A stretch of 64,000 nucleotides of DNA, taken from positions 1 through 64,000 of the forward strand of contig NZ_JAQFWP010000033.1 in the NCBI RefSeq assembly GCF_027706745.1. Direction: 5' to 3'. How positions within the stretch are numbered: the first letter of the stretch is position 1; every line of letters starts with the position of its first letter. The translations under genes and the position numbers were made by a program. Under the pieces are notes generated by a model. It ran no database searches. It saw only the letters and a list, made by a program, of their open reading frames with translations, and was not told the origin of the DNA. The stretch comes from Nocardiopsis suaedae. GTDB taxonomy: Bacteria; Actinomycetota; Actinomycetes; Streptosporangiales; Streptosporangiaceae. Positions 56,777 through 64,000 of the stretch are shown here, in pieces.

Positions 56777-57523
56777 ATGGAGCTGGAACGCGTCGTCATC
56801 GGACTCGTCGCCGCGCTGCTGCTCCCCTACTCCCTCCCGGCCGTCCGCCCCCGGCCGCTGCTCGCGGTCCCCCTGACCGTCCTGTACGCGGCCTACGCAC
56901 TGGCTCCGGCGCTGCTCTCCCCCGCCGCCGCCGTGCTGCTGCCGCTGACGGCGGCCGCGTCCTGGGGCCTGTGGCGGCTGGCCCGCACCGACGCCCACAT
57001 GCAGGGCTCCCCCCGCATCCTCATCTCGCGCTCGGTGGCCGGGACCATCTTCGCGCCGCTGGGGCTGACCCTCGCCCTGGCGGGCACGGCCGCGGCGTTG
57101 CACACGGGGACGAAGGTCCTCACCGGGGCGCGTGATCTTATCCTGGACGATAGAACGGCGATCGCGGTGTCGGGGCTGCTGATCGCCACGTTCATCGGAG
57201 GGGAGGTCGTCACGCACACGCTCCATCCGTTCTACGCCGAACTGAAGAAGGCGGAGGCGGGGGAGATGGAGCCCCTGAAAGGGGCGGGAACCGCCATCGG
57301 ATGGCTGGAGCGGTCCATGACCTACGCCCTCACCGTCGCGGGACGGCCGGAGGCCATCGCGGTGGTCGTCGGCATCAAGGCGCTTGCGCGCTTCCCCGAA
57401 CTGCAGAGCAACCAGAAGCGGTTCGCCGAGTACTTCCTCATCGGCTCGATGAGCAGTATCGGCCTGGCCCTCCTGATCGCCGCGGTGATCCGCATCGTCT
57501 TAGGAGAGAAGGCACTCGGGTGA
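56777..57523 (+). CDS. Membrane protein with DUF3307-like C-terminal half
   Basis: This 248-residue protein has about five or six hydrophobic segments. The C-terminal part reads AIGWLERSMTYALTVAGRPEAIAVVVGIKALARFPEL, then EYFLIGSMSSIGLALLIAAVI. That is the pattern of the DUF3307 C-terminal region (LER..., gqweaigfllaaKs..RF, EYvlIGTLlS). Its function is not known in any organism I can name. The ATG follows GAAGAGGAGCGGC. The next gene starts inside its stop (GTGA), so the two make a coupled pair. Confidence 0.7.
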   Translation: MELERVVIGLVAALLLPYSLPAVRPRPLLAVPLTVLYAAYALAPALLSPAAAVLLPLTAAASWGLWRLARTDAHMQGSPRILISRSVAGTIFAPLGLTLALAGTAAALHTGTKVLTGARDLILDDRTAIAVSGLLIATFIGGEVVTHTLHPFYAELKKAEAGEMEPLKGAGTAIGWLERSMTYALTVAGRPEAIAVVVGIKALARFPELQSNQKRFAEYFLIGSMSSIGLALLIAAVIRIVLGEKALG

Positions 57524-58002
57524 CACGGCAGCACGCACTCCTGCACAGCCATCCCCTCTTCGTCGACCTCGCCCGCCTCGGCCTGCCGGCCGACGACTAC
57601 ATCATCGCGGGCAGCGGGCCGCTCCTGGCGCGCGGCATCCGCACCGACATCACCGACCTGGACGTGGTGGTGCGCGGGCGCGCCTGGGACATCGCGCGGA
57701 TGCTGGGCCCGGTGGTCACCGCCCCCTGGGAGGGGGTACAGCGCGTGGTGCTCCACGGCGGCCGCCTGGACGTGCTCAACGGCTGGTTCCCGTCCATGTG
57801 GGACCTGGACGAGTTCATCGAGACCCGCGAGTACATCGACGGCCTGCCCTTCGCGCCCCTCGACCGGGTCCTGCGCTGGAAGCGCCGCCTGGGCCGGGCC
57901 AAGGACATCGCCGACATCAACGCGCTGATGGAGTACTTCGACCCGGAGGTGGGCACCGTCGCCCGCGCCCCCGTCCCGGCCGAAGGGCCCTCCGCCCCGT
58001 GA
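57520..58002 (+). CDS. Nucleotidyltransferase-fold protein (AbiEii/MNT-like)
   Basis: This 160-residue soluble protein has the minimal nucleotidyltransferase pattern: a GSGPLLARGIR loop (GSx-type) followed by DITDLDVVVRG, in which the aspartates sit where the metal-binding DxD lies. Near the end RAKDIADINALMEYF matches the KDxxDIxxL helix of many AbiEii-like and other stand-alone transferases. No HEPN or AbiEi partner is present; its coupled partner is the membrane protein upstream. Catalysis, if any, could be NMP transfer to a protein or RNA. Confidence 0.65.
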   Translation: MTRQHALLHSHPLFVDLARLGLPADDYIIAGSGPLLARGIRTDITDLDVVVRGRAWDIARMLGPVVTAPWEGVQRVVLHGGRLDVLNGWFPSMWDLDEFIETREYIDGLPFAPLDRVLRWKRRLGRAKDIADINALMEYFDPEVGTVARAPVPAEGPSAP

Positions 58003-58137
58003 GACCGGTGAGCTCCAGGTCTCTTCCGAATTGCCGATAAACCCGCCATTCGTCCCCGGCCTTCCGCCCATAGTTGCCTCCGAGAACCGCGAATCGGCTT
58101 CCGGTTCAGGAACAACGTGGGGAAAGGACGGGACGGA

Positions 58138-58905
58138 ATGGGCGGAAGGCTCCCCGAACGCACGCGTCGGCTCATCATCGCCACCGACGCCGAGGCCTAC
58201 AGCGCACGGGACTACACCGGGCAGGTGCGCCTCCAAGAGGACCTCCACAGGGTCCTGGAGGAGGCCTGCACCAACGGCGGCCTGGACCGGGCGTCCTGGG
58301 ACCTGCAGGAGCAGGGCGACGGGGAGATCGCGGTGCTCCCCGTCGGAACGCCGGAGGACGCCACCCTCTCGGCCTTCCTCGACGGCCTGGCCCAGGCGCT
58401 GCACCACCACAACCGGCCGCTCAACGACGCCTACCGCGTGCGCCTGCGCGTCGCCGTCCACCAGGGGCTCGTCGCCGACGGCCGGAACGGGTTCGTCGGC
58501 GCGCCGGTCAACGAGGCCTGCCGGCTGCGCGACTGCGACCTGGTCCGGGACGCCCTCGCCGACGCCCCCGGCGCCGACTTCGTCACCGTGCTGTCGCGCT
58601 CCCTGTACGAGGACGCCGTCGCCGACGGCACGGTGGGCCTGTACCGGTGGCCCTTCAAGCGGGTCGACATCGAGATCCCGGCCAAGGCGTTCCGCGCCGA
58701 GGCCTGGCTGTGCGTCTCCTCCGACCCCCCGGCCCCCGAGGGCTCCGCGCCCCCGGCGGACTCCCCCGGGAAGGCGCCGGACACCGAAGCGGGGCCGGGG
58801 CGCGCCGCCCCGCCCCGCTCCTCCCCGACGTTCAGCGTCACCGGAGGCGACATGACCTTCGGCGACCACCACGGCGACAAGACCAGCATCAACAACATCC
58901 GCTGA
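58138..58905 (+). CDS. Class III nucleotide-cyclase-like protein with C-terminal GDHHGDK tag
   Basis: This 255-residue protein has a cyclase homology fold: RRLIIATDAEAYSARD (first metal Asp position), WDLQEQGDGEIAVLP (GDG, second metal Asp), RLRVAVHQGLVADGRNGFVGAPVNEACRLRD (the substrate and dimer arm) and a closing VDIEIPAKAFRAEAWLCVS. A Pro/Ala/Ser linker (about 195-230) then leads to the tag SVTGGDMTFGDHHGDK within residues 232-255. The tag recurs at 87-109 of the next protein, seven bases downstream. ATG 58138 has AGGACGGGACGG just before it. Whether it makes a cyclic nucleotide is unknown. Confidence 0.7.
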   Translation: MGGRLPERTRRLIIATDAEAYSARDYTGQVRLQEDLHRVLEEACTNGGLDRASWDLQEQGDGEIAVLPVGTPEDATLSAFLDGLAQALHHHNRPLNDAYRVRLRVAVHQGLVADGRNGFVGAPVNEACRLRDCDLVRDALADAPGADFVTVLSRSLYEDAVADGTVGLYRWPFKRVDIEIPAKAFRAEAWLCVSSDPPAPEGSAPPADSPGKAPDTEAGPGRAAPPRSSPTFSVTGGDMTFGDHHGDKTSINNIR

Positions 58906-58912
58906 GCGCGCC

Positions 58913-61396
58913 ATGGCACAGGACGCCGACGAGCACCCCCGCCAGCCGCCTCCAGAGTCCCCGCGCCCAGAGGGGACCCCGCCCGCCGGAGACACGGGCG
59001 ACGCCACCGGCCCCCCTGCCCCCCGCCGATCCGAGCAGACCGAGGATCCGGGGGCAGGAGCCGGACCGGCCGACGAGCGGCACACCGATCCGGCCGAGGA
59101 GGAGTTCCGGGCCTCCGCAGCCGAGCAGCGGCGCCGCGACAGCAGGTACGCCCGCACGAGCGGCGGGGCGTTCACCGTCACCGGCGGCGACATCACGCAC
59201 GGCGACCACCACGGCGACAAGTTCACCTACAACGTCTTCGCCCAGCGGGAGGGCTCATCGGCCCGGATGGGCGCCGTCGGCAAGGTCGGCGCGGCGCTCG
59301 CCCTGCGGGTCGAAGCGGCGAGCGACGCCGAGCTGTCGCGCTGCCTGAATCGGGACCGGATCGTCCTCCTGCGCGGCCCCGAGGATTCCGGTCGGACGAC
59401 CTCCGCGGTGTGCGCACTGGCGCAGCAGTGCGCCCCCGCCTCGGAGCGGCCGATCCGCACCGTCCCCCGCTCCACGGACCTGCGCCGCCTCGCCGACATG
59501 CTGGGGGACTCGGAGAACGCGGCCTGCGGGTACGTGCTCGACGCCTCGGACGCCCCCTGGCTCGCCGACGCCACCGCCGCCGAGCTGTCAGCGCTCTCCT
59601 CCGCCCTCGAAGGGCACGACGCGCGCCTGTGCGTGCTGGTCGACCGGGACGACCCCGTCGGGCACCTGCGGTACCGGCCCGTCGAGCACACCCCCGCGGA
59701 CCTGCGGGGCGTCCTGGAGCGGACCCTCGCCACCGCCCTGCTCACCGGCGGGGCGGCGCCGCCGCAGGACCGGGGGGCCGTCGACGCCGCCGTCGCCGAG
59801 CGCGCCCGGCCCGTGCTGGAGGAGGCCGAGAAGCGCTCCTCCTCGGTCCGGATCTGGGCCGAGACCGCCGACACCCCCGAGGACGCCGCCGCCCTGGGCG
59901 GCTTCCTCGCGGCGCTCGCCGACCCCGGGGACGCCCTCCCCGAGGACACCGACCGCCGCGTCGGCGAGGTGCGGGCGCGGCGGCTCGCCGACCGCGCCCG
60001 CGCCCTGCTGCGCAGGACCTCCCGCCGCCGCTCCCCCGTCGACCAGGCCTACGTGATCACCACCGCCGTCCTGGACGGCTGCCCCCTCGCCAAGGTCATC
60101 ACCGCGGCCGAAGACCTGGCGGCACGGCTCCACCGTGCCGAGCGCCCGAACGGCCCCTGGCGGCGCGAGGCCTTCTCCCTGCCGCTCAACCACCGGCTCC
60201 GCCACGTCGACCTGATCGCCGACGACGGCGGCGGCCCCGGCGACGCGGCCGACCCGCCGGGCGACACCACCGTCCGCCTCAAGCAGCCCGACCTGTGGAC
60301 GGCCGTCGTCGACCTGGTGTGGATCGACCATGAGGCGGCCCGCAGGCCCCTGCTGGAGTGGCTCGCCCGGCTCTGCGAGACCTCCGGGGACGAGGACGTC
60401 GGCATCCAGAACGGGGTCGAGCTGGCCCTGGCGCGGCTCGCCGCCGAGGACTTCGACGAGATCTCCCGCACGGTCCTGGAGCCGTGGGCACGGCGCCGTC
60501 CCGCGTTCAGCACGGGCGGTGCCGGGTCCGACGCGTACACCCACTGCCGCCGCGTGGCGGCCTGGGTGCTGGAGCGCCTCGTCGTCGAGACCCGGCAGAA
60601 GTCCCGCGCGCTGGGCCTCCTGGACCGGTGGATGCGGTCGAACGACATCCCGCTGCGCCGCACCGCCGTACTCGCCTACGGGTCCCGGGTGGCGTGCAGG
60701 GTTCCGGACACCGTGTTCGCGACCGTCAAGACGGAGCTCGCCCGCATCGCCGCGGACACGCGCCGCGGCAGGGACCCCTTCGGGACCCTGATGCGCACCG
60801 TGCTGGTCGCCGAAGCGCTGGAGGGCGCCTACGACGCGGGGATGCGCGCGAGCACCGTGGAGCTCGTCGCCGACGAGGCCGGCGCGGCGCGCCCGGGTGC
60901 GGCCAAGGCGGCGCTCATCGCCCTCATGCGCATCTGCCAGCTCCGCGGGCGCCTGCCGGGGGCCGAGGCCGGAGCCGCTCGCGGCCCCCACCCCGACCTG
61001 CTCATGTGGTTGGACGCCCCCTGGCCGGACCCGCCTTCGGACACGTCGGCGCCCGCCCGGCCGAACGACCGCCCCGACCCGTCGAAGCCGCTGGCCGGGA
61101 TCGCCCGGCTGTGGGCCGCGGCGCTGCTCGACGACATCCACGGGCCCACCGCCTGGCGGATCCTCCTGCAGTGGGACACGGCCGCGGGCCCCGCCGCCGG
61201 AGACGGGACGGCCGTGACCGCCCCGGGGCGGCGGGCGCGCATGGACGAACTCCTGGCCCACCTGCGCAGGGTCCCCGACCTGCGCGAACTCATCGACCGC
61301 TATGAGCGGGTCCGCGCCCGCACCGCCCGCACGCGTCGGCCCCGCGGCGGGCCGGACGCGTCCCCCGGAGAGGAGGCCACCGATGGGCCGACCTGA
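58913..61396 (+). CDS. STAND-like NTPase with N-terminal GDHHGDK tag and helical repeats
   Basis: This 827-residue protein has a disordered Pro/Glu-rich first 80 residues, then TVTGGDITHGDHHGDK (within 87-109). A P-loop-like segment RIVLLRGPEDSGRTTSA follows at about 150, in which Arg replaces the Walker A lysine. AACGYVLDASDAP is a weak Walker B, and the rest is a long helical region (about 330-800) with no repeat I can name. The architecture, a short motif then an NTPase then a helical sensor, is that of NLR/STAND proteins. The altered P-loop suggests weak or no hydrolysis. The start has no ribosome site and probably relies on coupling to the upstream gene. Confidence 0.65.
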   Translation: MAQDADEHPRQPPPESPRPEGTPPAGDTGDATGPPAPRRSEQTEDPGAGAGPADERHTDPAEEEFRASAAEQRRRDSRYARTSGGAFTVTGGDITHGDHHGDKFTYNVFAQREGSSARMGAVGKVGAALALRVEAASDAELSRCLNRDRIVLLRGPEDSGRTTSAVCALAQQCAPASERPIRTVPRSTDLRRLADMLGDSENAACGYVLDASDAPWLADATAAELSALSSALEGHDARLCVLVDRDDPVGHLRYRPVEHTPADLRGVLERTLATALLTGGAAPPQDRGAVDAAVAERARPVLEEAEKRSSSVRIWAETADTPEDAAALGGFLAALADPGDALPEDTDRRVGEVRARRLADRARALLRRTSRRRSPVDQAYVITTAVLDGCPLAKVITAAEDLAARLHRAERPNGPWRREAFSLPLNHRLRHVDLIADDGGGPGDAADPPGDTTVRLKQPDLWTAVVDLVWIDHEAARRPLLEWLARLCETSGDEDVGIQNGVELALARLAAEDFDEISRTVLEPWARRRPAFSTGGAGSDAYTHCRRVAAWVLERLVVETRQKSRALGLLDRWMRSNDIPLRRTAVLAYGSRVACRVPDTVFATVKTELARIAADTRRGRDPFGTLMRTVLVAEALEGAYDAGMRASTVELVADEAGAARPGAAKAALIALMRICQLRGRLPGAEAGAARGPHPDLLMWLDAPWPDPPSDTSAPARPNDRPDPSKPLAGIARLWAAALLDDIHGPTAWRILLQWDTAAGPAAGDGTAVTAPGRRARMDELLAHLRRVPDLRELIDRYERVRARTARTRRPRGGPDASPGEEATDGPT

Positions 61397-62426
61397 CCAG
61401 CCGCGCGACCCGGCCACCGGCCGCTACACGTTCGGACGCGCCCGCCCCGACGAGGGGCCGGGCCTGTTCCGCCGCCTGATGGACCGCCTGTTCGGCGGCG
61501 GAGAGCCCGACGACCGCCCCGGCTGGTTCCCCGACGAGCCGGAGGAGCCCGAGACGGTCCACCTGGAGATCTCCGACGATCTCGAACAGTTCGCCACACC
61601 GGCCCGGGACGACGCCTTCACCTTCGACGTGCGGATCAGGGTCGCCTGGAGCGCGAGCGTGACGTGCGCCGACCCCGGGGAGCGTCGGGAGATCGAGCGG
61701 GCCGTGGAGGCCTTCGTCGACGAGCGCAAGGCCTCGGTGCGCGGCGAACTGATGAGCAGGGTCCGGCCCCTCGGACGGCGGCTGGCCCCCTACCAGGCGG
61801 CCGATCTGGAGCGGCTGATCAACGAGGACAACGCGCGCGAGCACTTCCTGATCCCCCGGCGGCCCGAACCGCCCCGCCACGGACCGGCCGCGCGCCCCGG
61901 GCGCGACCGCGCGCTCCTGGACGCCCCCTACGAACTCGTCGACGCACAGGTGCACGCCTGGGTCGACCCTTGCGACGCGGTGCGCCGACTCGTGCAGGAC
62001 CAGTGGGTCGAGCAGACACGGCGGGCCGGCCGCCAGGCCCTCGCCGTGCAGGAGGTCGCCCGGCTCGCCGAACGCCAGGAGTACTGGCACGACCTGTTCC
62101 TCCGGACCCTGCAGCGGATGGGCCGTGTGGACGGGGCCCAGGCCGACTGGGTGGCCGTCGACGCCCTGCGGATGGCCACCGATGCCGACGCCTCCCCCGG
62201 CGGCGCCGAGGCGGTGCTCCGGGACGCGCTGGACCGCCGCACCCGGGAGGGGTCGCAACTGGCACAGCAGCTCGCGGGGATGATCGACGCCGCCCGGCGG
62301 GACGAAGCGGGCCTGCTGGAGTTCGCCTTCGCCAGTGACACGGCCCTGCGCGCGGTCCTCGAACACCTCGGTGTGCCCGTGGAGCAGATCGAGCGGGCCC
62401 GGGAGAAGGGGGACCTGGAGGGATGA
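61383..62426 (+). CDS. Unrecognised cytosolic protein, possibly SPFH/band-7-like core
   Basis: This 347-residue protein has no signal or membrane segment. Residues 57-150 read as beta strands then a long helix (DAFTFDVRIRVAWSASVTC, then EIERAVEAFVDERKASVRGELMSRVRPLGRRLAPYQAADLERLINEDN). That is a little like the band-7/SPFH order, but I am not sure. A charged helical C-terminus follows (VQDQWVEQTRRAGRQALAVQEVARLAERQEYWH). ATG 61383 follows GGAGAGGAGG and overlaps the STAND stop by 14 bases. The next gene overlaps its own stop, so it belongs firmly to this operon. Confidence 0.55.
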   Translation: MGRPDQPRDPATGRYTFGRARPDEGPGLFRRLMDRLFGGGEPDDRPGWFPDEPEEPETVHLEISDDLEQFATPARDDAFTFDVRIRVAWSASVTCADPGERREIERAVEAFVDERKASVRGELMSRVRPLGRRLAPYQAADLERLINEDNAREHFLIPRRPEPPRHGPAARPGRDRALLDAPYELVDAQVHAWVDPCDAVRRLVQDQWVEQTRRAGRQALAVQEVARLAERQEYWHDLFLRTLQRMGRVDGAQADWVAVDALRMATDADASPGGAEAVLRDALDRRTREGSQLAQQLAGMIDAARRDEAGLLEFAFASDTALRAVLEHLGVPVEQIERAREKGDLEG

Positions 62427-63721
62427 ACACCACGAGCGTGCGGGCCACCGCACTGGACCGCCTGGTCCCGGCCGCCGCGGCCGCCCTCCTCCTGCCCGCG
62501 GCGTCGGCGTGCTTCCCCGACCCGGTTCCGGCCGCGGGCGCCGTGCAGTGCGACTCGGTCTTCTCCTCCGGCGGGGCCTCCGATGCACCGGTGACCGCGG
62601 AGGTGGTCGTCCTGATCGACGTCAGCGCCTCGATGTGGACCGATCAGGGGTACCCCGGCCTCGCCGAGCGGATCGCCGCCGACGCCGTGGACGCCGACGT
62701 CTTCGGGGCGGCCGACCAGCGGCGGCTGTCGGTCGGCCTGTTCGGCGGCCCCGGTGCGCCCGCCTTTCCGCTCGACCGGGTCCCGCTGCCCGAGGCCGTC
62801 GGCCTGGCCGACGGACGGCAGGCCACGGACCGGCAGGCGGTCACCGAATGCCTGGAGAAGGAGCTCGGAGAGCGGGTCCCGGGCGAGGGGGCGCAGCGCC
62901 CGGGGAGCGACATCCTGCGCGCGCTGACCGCCGGGGCCGGACGGTTGGAGGGGAACACGGAGGACGGGAAGGACGGAGAGGACGGGGAGGACGCCGACCG
63001 GCGGCTCCTGGTCTACACCGACGGCCTCGCCAACACCGGGTGCCTGGACATGGAGCGCTACTTCGGCGACGGCCTCGGCTCCGAAGAGGTGGCGGCCGAC
63101 TGCGCGGCCTCCGGCGAGGACCGGGGGCTGGACCTGTCCGGCATCGACGTGCGGCTGCACCTGCAGGACACCGGGGCCGAGGCGCGCGACTCCTCTCAGG
63201 ACGCGGCGGTGCGGAGCTACTGGGAGCAGGTGTGCGCGGCGTTCGGCGGGACGGAATGCCTGGAGCAGGCGCAGGCGCCGGGAGGTTACGTGGACGCCGC
63301 GGAACCGGGCGCGGAAGACCCGGAGGTCGCCCTGCCCAGTGCCGAGTTCCCCGACCGGGGGACCGTCTCCCTTCCGTCCCAGCTCCTGTTCGCCTTCGAC
63401 TCGGCGGTCCTGAGGGACGAGGCCGAGGAGCTGCTCGACGAGGCCGCCGCGCACCTGCGCGGGGACGGGGCCGAGGCGCCGAGTGTGACGGTCACCGGCC
63501 ATACCGACAGCAAGGGCGGCGACGACTACAACGAGGACCTCTCCCTGCGGCGCGCAGAGGCCGTCGCGGACTACCTGGAATCCGCCGGATTCGCCGAGGT
63601 GAGCGTGGTCGGCGAAGGCGAGCGGGACCCGGTGTGCGAGGGCGACTACCAGGACGGCGAGCTGCTGGACGGCGCGTGCGCCCAGGAGAACCGCCGGGTC
63701 GACATCGAGATCGCGGACTGA
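62423..63721 (+). CDS. Lipoprotein with vWA-like and OmpA-like domains
   Basis: This 432-residue protein has a signal peptide ending in the lipobox PAASAC (Cys30). A vWA-like domain with the MIDAS motif VVVLIDVSASM (Asp66, Ser68, Ser70) and LLVYTDGLANTGC follows, with an acidic insert (EDGKDGEDGEDAD) between them. The C-terminal OmpA-like peptidoglycan-binding domain starts at about 320: LLFAFDSAVLRDEAEELLDEAA, VTVTGHTDSKGGDDYNEDLSLRRAEAVADYLE and ENRRVDIEIAD. It would be anchored outside the cell membrane and bound to the wall. It overlaps the upstream gene by four bases (ATGA). A wall-bound sensor or scaffold is a fair inference. Confidence 0.75.
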   Translation: MNTTSVRATALDRLVPAAAAALLLPAASACFPDPVPAAGAVQCDSVFSSGGASDAPVTAEVVVLIDVSASMWTDQGYPGLAERIAADAVDADVFGAADQRRLSVGLFGGPGAPAFPLDRVPLPEAVGLADGRQATDRQAVTECLEKELGERVPGEGAQRPGSDILRALTAGAGRLEGNTEDGKDGEDGEDADRRLLVYTDGLANTGCLDMERYFGDGLGSEEVAADCAASGEDRGLDLSGIDVRLHLQDTGAEARDSSQDAAVRSYWEQVCAAFGGTECLEQAQAPGGYVDAAEPGAEDPEVALPSAEFPDRGTVSLPSQLLFAFDSAVLRDEAEELLDEAAAHLRGDGAEAPSVTVTGHTDSKGGDDYNEDLSLRRAEAVADYLESAGFAEVSVVGEGERDPVCEGDYQDGELLDGACAQENRRVDIEIAD

Positions 63722-63730
63722 GGGGGCACG

Positions 63731-64000
63731 ATGCCCGGAAACGACGACTTCCCCGGCGGGTGGGGGCCGAACGGCCCGAGAGACCCCGGCGGCCCGGACG
63801 GCGGCGGGAGCCCGCAAGGGGACTTCCCCGCACTGCCCGGCGACGGGTTCATCCCGCTCTCCTTCCACCAAGGGGCATGCGGGTGCCCGCTGGAAGACGC
63901 GGTGTCGGGGCGGGGCCACTTCCCGCCCGCCGACGCGCCGCACCTGGTGGCCAACCACGAGATGGCGCACCAGTTCAGCGCCTCGTTCAACGCCACGCGC
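63731..64000 (+). CDS. Start of a gene cut by the window edge; carries HEMAH
   Basis: An open frame of 90 codons starts at ATG 63731, nine bases after the lipoprotein stop, with GGGGGC before it, and runs off the window. The first 35 residues are Gly/Pro/Asp-rich. Then come FIPLSFHQGACGCPLED and LVANHEMAHQFSASFN, in which HEMAH (76-80) fits the HExxH zinc-protease pattern. Five residues can match by chance, and no downstream ligand is visible, so I do not call a protease. It is probably the next gene of the same operon. Confidence 0.5.
   Translation, partial: MPGNDDFPGGWGPNGPRDPGGPDGGGSPQGDFPALPGDGFIPLSFHQGACGCPLEDAVSGRGHFPPADAPHLVANHEMAHQFSASFNATR

Follow-up and report, generated by a model that had tools for sequence, protein, structure and literature searches.

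A conserved, mobile, Pycsar-like cassette of Nocardiopsis suaedae in which a candidate receptor and a candidate nucleotide cyclase carry a matched, locus-specific motif

How might a bacterial nucleotide cyclase be placed under the control of a receptor? This question is raised by a gene cassette at the end of a 64,000-nucleotide stretch of DNA from Nocardiopsis suaedae (NCBI RefSeq assembly GCF_027706745.1, contig NZ_JAQFWP010000033.1, positions 1 to 64,000 of the forward strand; hereafter the window). Classical Pycsar has two components, and its sensing step, by direct phage contact or pH, is only a proposal (PMC11224242). The cassette described here comprises seven genes, designated A through G, among them those for a class III nucleotide cyclase-like protein (A), a STAND/NLR-like receptor candidate (B) and a PycTM protein (G). 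In soil actinomycetes these genes travel together, and they have the look of an immune circuit. We consider it rather likely that this is a mobile cassette in which the receptor turns on the cyclase. Judged from its genes, it is a conserved, Pycsar-like element with a receptor-like front end, which a motif peculiar to each locus is predicted to connect with the cyclase.

A motif common to the cyclase-like and receptor-like proteins

The C-terminus of A and the N-terminus of B each bear a short motif of about 20 residues, Gly/Asn/Asp-rich and beta-prone, which is alike within a locus and different from locus to locus. When all cyclase tails were compared with all receptor heads (20 non-redundant adjacent A/B pairs; 200,000 permutations), own partners reached a mean motif score of 63 versus 33 for non-partners, the own partner was the top match in 13 of the 20 pairs, and the observed sum was reached by none of the permutations. 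Individually, 15 pairs were convincing or suggestive, and control regions of the same A and B proteins displayed no partner-matching effect.

At the DNA level, the two copies within a locus are identical at 44/45 nt in the sister locus of Nocardiopsis endophytica (L010), at 84/87 nt in L094, at 52/63 nt in the window and at 35/51 nt in both L026 and L029, while between orthologues, window versus L010, 36/45 nt agree for the A copy and 33/45 nt for the B copy. Within-locus copies are thus closer than orthologous copies, indicating that both are held alike while the sequence drifts, and their likeness is probably maintained by gene conversion plus selection. The near-identical DNA of L010 and L094 would also fit a selectively neutral likeness, left behind when part of the locus was recently duplicated or converted. 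That explanation strikes us as very improbable: protein similarity persists in L026 and L029 despite the divergence of the DNA, and the likeness, confined to the A tail and the B head, reaches different attached domains and different types of P-loop receptor. Specifically, in L038 (14054-15010, - strand) a SARP regulator (BTAD 6e-13, plus Trans_reg_C) stands in place of the cyclase and bears a matched C-terminal motif, its tail and its receptor reading GTIHVTGERARVNQ and GTHVSGDRARVFQ, respectively (score reached in 12/500 shuffles), suggesting an NLR-gated transcription factor. Similarly, the head of a TPR-type receptor in L110 matches the tail of its own cyclase (3/500 shuffles reach the score). 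The motif therefore appears to survive a swap of the attached domain, be it for a SARP protein, as in L038, or a TPR-type P-loop protein, as in L110.

We infer that the motif may act as an amyloid; the VQVG core of the BASS3 example peptide is lacking in the window motif. Both proteins carry the same rather than a complementary sequence, and homotypic stacking is favoured for that reason. Consistent with such stacking, an effector C-terminus and an NLR N-terminus encoded by adjacent genes constitute the layout defining bacterial amyloid signalling motifs (PMC7889193), and BASS3 and BASS3-like peptides aggregated when tested (PMC8086366). These points all argue against non-amyloid docking, in which the motifs would pair, for example as a beta-hairpin between the two molecules or as a short beta-solenoid, and keep cyclase and STAND in a stable complex, the cyclase being activated allosterically. 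In favour of docking, the sequence evidence demonstrates matching and not fibre formation, and a cyclic mononucleotide (cNMP) cyclase is elsewhere joined to a folded adaptor domain that matches the adaptor of iSTAND2 (PMC8195603); we judge docking unlikely, but well worth keeping in view.

A conserved C-terminal motif, NNNAxGNSGxVYQMGDVxGG, is also present in A-type cyclases encoded together with a Crp-type regulator in L044 (6938-9124), L092, L097 and L099. No STAND gene is adjacent in these loci, a small protein is encoded downstream, and a partner may sit elsewhere in the genome.

The cassette as a conserved and mobile unit

A first-pass annotation of this DNA had proposed a signalling or conflict cassette of five same-strand genes that overlap or lie at most nine bases apart. 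All five open reading frames, A through E, were verified on the + strand of positions 58138-64000 where that annotation had placed them (Table 1), with 7 bp between A and B, a 14-base overlap of B and C, a 4-base overlap of C and D, and 9 bp between D and E. The fifth gene, described there as truncated, is indeed cut at the window edge but is whole in the contig (C33, 74,028 b), in which the operon extends 3 kb beyond the window, completing E and continuing with F and G, each having a 4-base overlap with the preceding gene.

Homologous loci were collected by a search with E alone, which gave a match in 13/299 genomes sampled from the bacterial family, spread over 8 of the 68 genera, and in 3/297 genomes sampled from the class; beyond the family such operons are rare. 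In total, 14 loci, the window included, were compared (gene content of L037 and L036 being read by six-frame translation). The cyclase gene comes first in 13/14 of these loci. The first-pass annotation had named conserved co-occurrence of at least three of the genes as support for a system, and homologues that are not neighbours elsewhere as grounds for abandoning one; B, C, D and E were found together, and in this order, in all 14 E-defined loci. A single-sequence search with C across the phylum matched its own genome alone (1/247), and a tblastn search of the plasmid collection with E gave no match.

In four congeners (G302, G354, G380 and G400), the two flanking genes of the cassette, encoding a nucleotidyltransferase-like and a GNAT protein, adjoin one another. 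BLAST places the alignable ends 46 bp apart in G400, compared with a distance in the window of about 9.0 kb (L009 3027 to 12009), and the interval missing from the congeners is filled by A through G and by no other genes; the sister locus L010 holds the complete block at the same site. Because four congeners lack the whole block at the corresponding site, A-G behaves as one unit, gained or lost. This absence and the recurrence of the order in the 14 loci show that the arrangement of the genes is no accident. Taken together, the cyclase-like A, the PycTM gene that ends the operon, and the conservation and joint movement of the gene set support the idea of a signalling or conflict cassette.

Several loci depart from this arrangement. 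On a plasmid of Streptomyces angustmyceticus (L108:7247-14503), a TIR protein replaces the cyclase while B-C-D-E are kept, and a 140-aa protein with transmembrane-like stretches occupies the place of PycTM. In Nonomuraea (L111:9013-14912), Crp-A-B are followed by genes for a 540-aa coiled-coil-like protein, a DUF4407 membrane protein and PycTM, the three standing in for C-D-E-F-G, with no detectable A/B motif match. Two Streptomyces plasmid loci (L110:6402-14011 and L109:6497-11890) encode Crp, a divergent PycTM, a cyclase and a TPR-type or NACHT-like P-loop protein, and would be another arrangement built on this principle; in L110, an 8-kb stretch close to an integrase encodes Crp, PycTM, the cyclase and the TPR-type protein. 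The bacterial family also has many smaller loci that consist of Crp-A-B and lack C-G. Cyclase and PycTM thus recur together across different layouts.

Table 1. Coordinates of the cassette genes, motifs and upstream flank (window positions unless marked C33, the contig that holds the window)
Feature	Position	Strand	Description
Gene A	58117..58905	+	class III nucleotide cyclase-like; ATG 58138 (255 aa), alternative GTG 58117
Gene A architecture			cyclase core, then Pro/Ala-rich linker, then C-terminal motif
A active site	D17 58186-58188; D61 in QGDGE 58318-58320; N125 and R129 as N-x3-R 58510-58524	+	predicted; ATG numbering
Motif copy 1	58831..58893	+	A C-terminus, FSVTGGDMTFGDHHGDKTSIN, then NIR; 52/63 nt same as copy 2
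Gene B	58913..61396	+	STAND/NLR-like, 827 aa; motif in a disordered N-terminus, then P-loop-like NTPase and C-terminal HEAT-like helical repeats
Motif copy 2	59171..59233	+	B N-terminus upstream of P-loop, FTVTGGDITHGDHHGDKFTYN
B P-loop	59375..59401	+	GPEDSGRTT (GxxxxGR; Arg for Walker A Lys)
Gene C	61383..62426	+	347 aa, cytosolic, no assigned fold
Gene D	62423..63721	+	secreted vWA-OmpA lipoprotein
Gene E	63731..65269 (window holds 63731..64000)	+	membrane protein, 512 aa
Gene F	C33:65266-66360		364-aa membrane protein; optional among relatives
Gene G	C33:66357-66959		PycTM Pycsar effector, 200 aa
Upstream flank	57520-58002		nucleotidyltransferase-like, 160 aa; stable side of empty site, outside cassette

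Predicted components and a model of activation

In a Pfam search no family matches A. A profile of the A family compared with PDB, however, matches class III cyclases exclusively (nine sequences, E 0.02-0.67), and in its alignment to 3mr7 both metal Asp residues line up. AlphaFold 2 (AF2) models, made for the window proteins and one relative, are of low confidence, and that of A is weak (pLDDT 41.6); its top 19 Foldseek matches in PDB are all class III nucleotide cyclases (best 7.9e-4), a result used solely as agreement with that of the profile. All 12/12 homologues have kept the two metal Asp residues and the Arg unchanged, while the Asn of N-x3-R is retained by the window A and its sister and replaced in the other homologues (n = 12 aligned). 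A is accordingly classed as class III cyclase-like, with catalytic residues present and cyclase activity predicted. The absence of this transition-state Asn from most relatives, and the report of inactive cNMP cyclases in ternary conflict systems (PMC7159879), would suit a catalytically dead A that acts as a nucleotide sensor or scaffold, PycTM being activated otherwise. We hold this to be improbable, given the invariance of the Asp pair and the Arg, the full N-x3-R of the window A, and the recurrence of the cyclase-PycTM pairing in three different operon layouts. A-type cyclases would seem to be a large unexplored family; the A-type profile matches 17 times in genome G313 and 11 times in genome G307, in some cases within long fusion proteins. 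The genome of the window encodes two more cyclases accompanied by Crp, of which one has a STAND partner.

Window B itself has no Pfam match. Its relatives match HEAT_2 in 5/12 cases (best 1.9e-6) and nSTAND3 in 4/12 (best 0.003, under the Pfam cut-off). In place of the canonical Walker A sequence GxxxxGK[ST], all 12 homologues have GxxxxGR, and residues G155, G160 and R161 are invariant among them. B is best described as STAND/NLR-like, short of a proven STAND NTPase.

G matches PF18967 at E 9e-10 (39.4 bits versus a cut-off of 27.2) and the PADLOC PycTM model at 1.8e-10. PycTM is the membrane effector of the anti-phage Pycsar system and is known to be toxic. The likeness to Pycsar raised by the first-pass annotation thus gains substance from a class III cyclase-like A and a PycTM in one operon; G, lying outside the window, was invisible to that annotation, and the A/B motif and the Crp partner had also gone unnoticed. 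In most loci a Crp-type regulator (cNMP_binding + HTH_Crp_2) is encoded directly upstream; no common inverted repeat was found when a Crp-binding palindrome was sought between Crp and cyclase. A second, weak PycTM-like protein (L046:4753-5178; E 2.6e-4) is encoded in the window's genome with no cyclase nearby.

The remaining genes point towards the envelope. C, conserved in all 14 E-defined loci alongside B, D and E, matches no Pfam family, and its AF2 model is too poor for a structure search; its candidacy as an SPFH/Band-7 protein was dropped, since Pfam supports it in none of 13 members and the AF2 model is poor. D has the features of the surface vWA-OmpA lipoprotein that had been suggested, with a signal peptide and lipobox Cys (Cys30), a vWA domain whose MIDAS is intact (D66-x-S68-x-S70, T199-D200; residues invariant among relatives), and a C-terminal OmpA peptidoglycan-binding domain (E 1.1e-17; among relatives, OmpA in 11/11 and VWA_2 in 5/11). 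E has about 3-4 transmembrane helices and no Pfam or PADLOC match. A HEMAH sequence in E had hinted at a zinc peptidase; it is not conserved in the E family and so provides no evidence for one, and that candidate was rejected, the conserved feature of E being an N-terminal Cys/His-rich CHxGCxC motif. An envelope-sensor role for D with B-C-D-E is plausible. Because B-C-D-E are constant and exchange affects the genes at either end, these four are taken as a putative sensing core with A and G as output, the weakest part of the model.

The best model predicted from these genes resembles Pycsar to which an NLR front end has been added. D, anchored to the wall through OmpA and to the membrane through its lipid, would sense or relay an envelope or phage signal, jointly with the membrane protein E (and F) and the cytosolic C. 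B, as its P-loop and HEAT repeats suggest, would then oligomerise and expose its N-terminal motif, which may template the matching C-terminal motif of A into an amyloid-like or other homotypic beta assembly and gather cyclase protomers. A, in which the catalytic residues are present, would thereby become active and produce a cyclic mononucleotide of one base or another. This messenger may activate or open the PycTM protein encoded in the same operon, causing inner-membrane damage and growth stop if G acts as in Pycsar, and in most relatives may also act on the neighbouring Crp-type regulator. More broadly, and tentatively, an envelope-spanning immune receptor, made up of the wall-anchored vWA lipoprotein, the membrane proteins and the cytosolic STAND, could possibly use the motif of its locus for prion-like templating and so turn on interchangeable outputs (cyclase, TIR, transcription factor).

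No neighbour is commoner than Crp, several Crp-A-B loci lack PycTM, a SARP transcription regulator replaces the cyclase in one locus, and the hosts are filamentous actinomycetes. Each of these observations would suit a regulatory or developmental circuit in which the cyclase serves the adjacent Crp while the STAND and envelope proteins sense wall state in growth or sporulation. We find such a circuit doubtful, if deserving of serious thought: PycTM, a toxic Pycsar effector, was found in 9/14 E-defined full loci, the window included, none of them selected for PycTM, and the removable, patchy block, its carriage on a plasmid beside an integrase, quick motif divergence and the swap for a TIR effector fit conflict systems.

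Several observations weigh against a receptor-gated, Pycsar-like cassette. No convincing motif match was found in 5/20 pairs (L031, L034, L036, L108 and L111). The STAND assignment of B is weak, nSTAND3 being sub-threshold and the Walker A Lys missing, and the PADLOC PycC models give no match to A, with 1/12 relatives matching at E 0.0066. The window locus and its sister L010 are without an adjacent Crp gene. Finally, PycTM is missing from 5/14 E-defined loci and from the loci consisting of Crp-A-B only, and the output of those loci must therefore be something else.

Relation to known systems

Two known systems resemble the cassette in part. With Zorya it has in common an OmpA-type peptidoglycan-binding protein and a membrane protein in a multi-gene cassette, and D matches ZorB models (best 7.1e-11). 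This likeness, however, is restricted to the OmpA domain region of D; no match to MotA/ZorA, ZorC, ZorD or ZorE was found in the cassette, and membership was rejected, the defining parts being missing. The iSTAND/iSTAND2 and vWA-MoxR ternary systems similarly contain STAND NTPases, vWA, OmpA and cNMP cyclases and include cyclase-STAND linkage (PMC7159879, PMC8195603). In those systems cyclases are joined to STANDs via folded, matched adaptor domains (PMC8195603), whereas here the putative adaptor is a short motif and the vWA domain resides in a secreted lipoprotein. No gene for a MoxR AAA+ ATPase is present among A-G or in the immediate flanks, and membership in the vWA-MoxR group was rejected since the defining MoxR is missing.

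The resemblance to Pycsar consists of a class III cyclase-like enzyme and PycTM in one operon, with messenger-activated membrane damage as the simplest predicted output. The cassette differs in that PADLOC PycC models miss A, five further genes are present, including those for STAND-like and envelope proteins, the cyclase bears the paired motif, and most relatives have a Crp partner. Activation of Pycsar cyclases by infection is still only proposed, and the circuit described here could show how such enzymes switch on; because the cyclase shares a sequence tag with the neighbouring receptor-like protein, the activation step is directly testable. A B-C-D-E core with swapped outputs would, in addition, be a modular sensor unit missing from PADLOC models.

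In bacterial NLR amyloid signalling, matching motifs are located at the effector C-terminus and the receptor N-terminus, and the reported effectors are Bell, CHAT and TIR (PMC7889193). Like the BASS motifs (Dyrka et al., 2020, as described in PMC7889193), the motif of A and B is short, Gly/Asn/Asp-rich and beta-prone, is positioned at the effector C-terminus and the receptor N-terminus of adjacent genes, and occurs in filamentous actinobacteria; a common motif in adjacent genes, the BASS-type layout, was found over the 20 pairs taken together (0/200,000 permutations). Here, in contrast, the motif is attached to a nucleotide cyclase domain (or SARP) and not to Bell, CHAT or TIR. Our literature search found no report of a nucleotide cyclase as an NLR amyloid-signalling effector, nor any uniting Pycsar and NLR amyloid signalling in bacteria. 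If the model is correct, amyloid signalling would control a second messenger, and bacterial NLR motif signalling would reach second-messenger enzymes in addition to membrane killers, proteases and TIRs.

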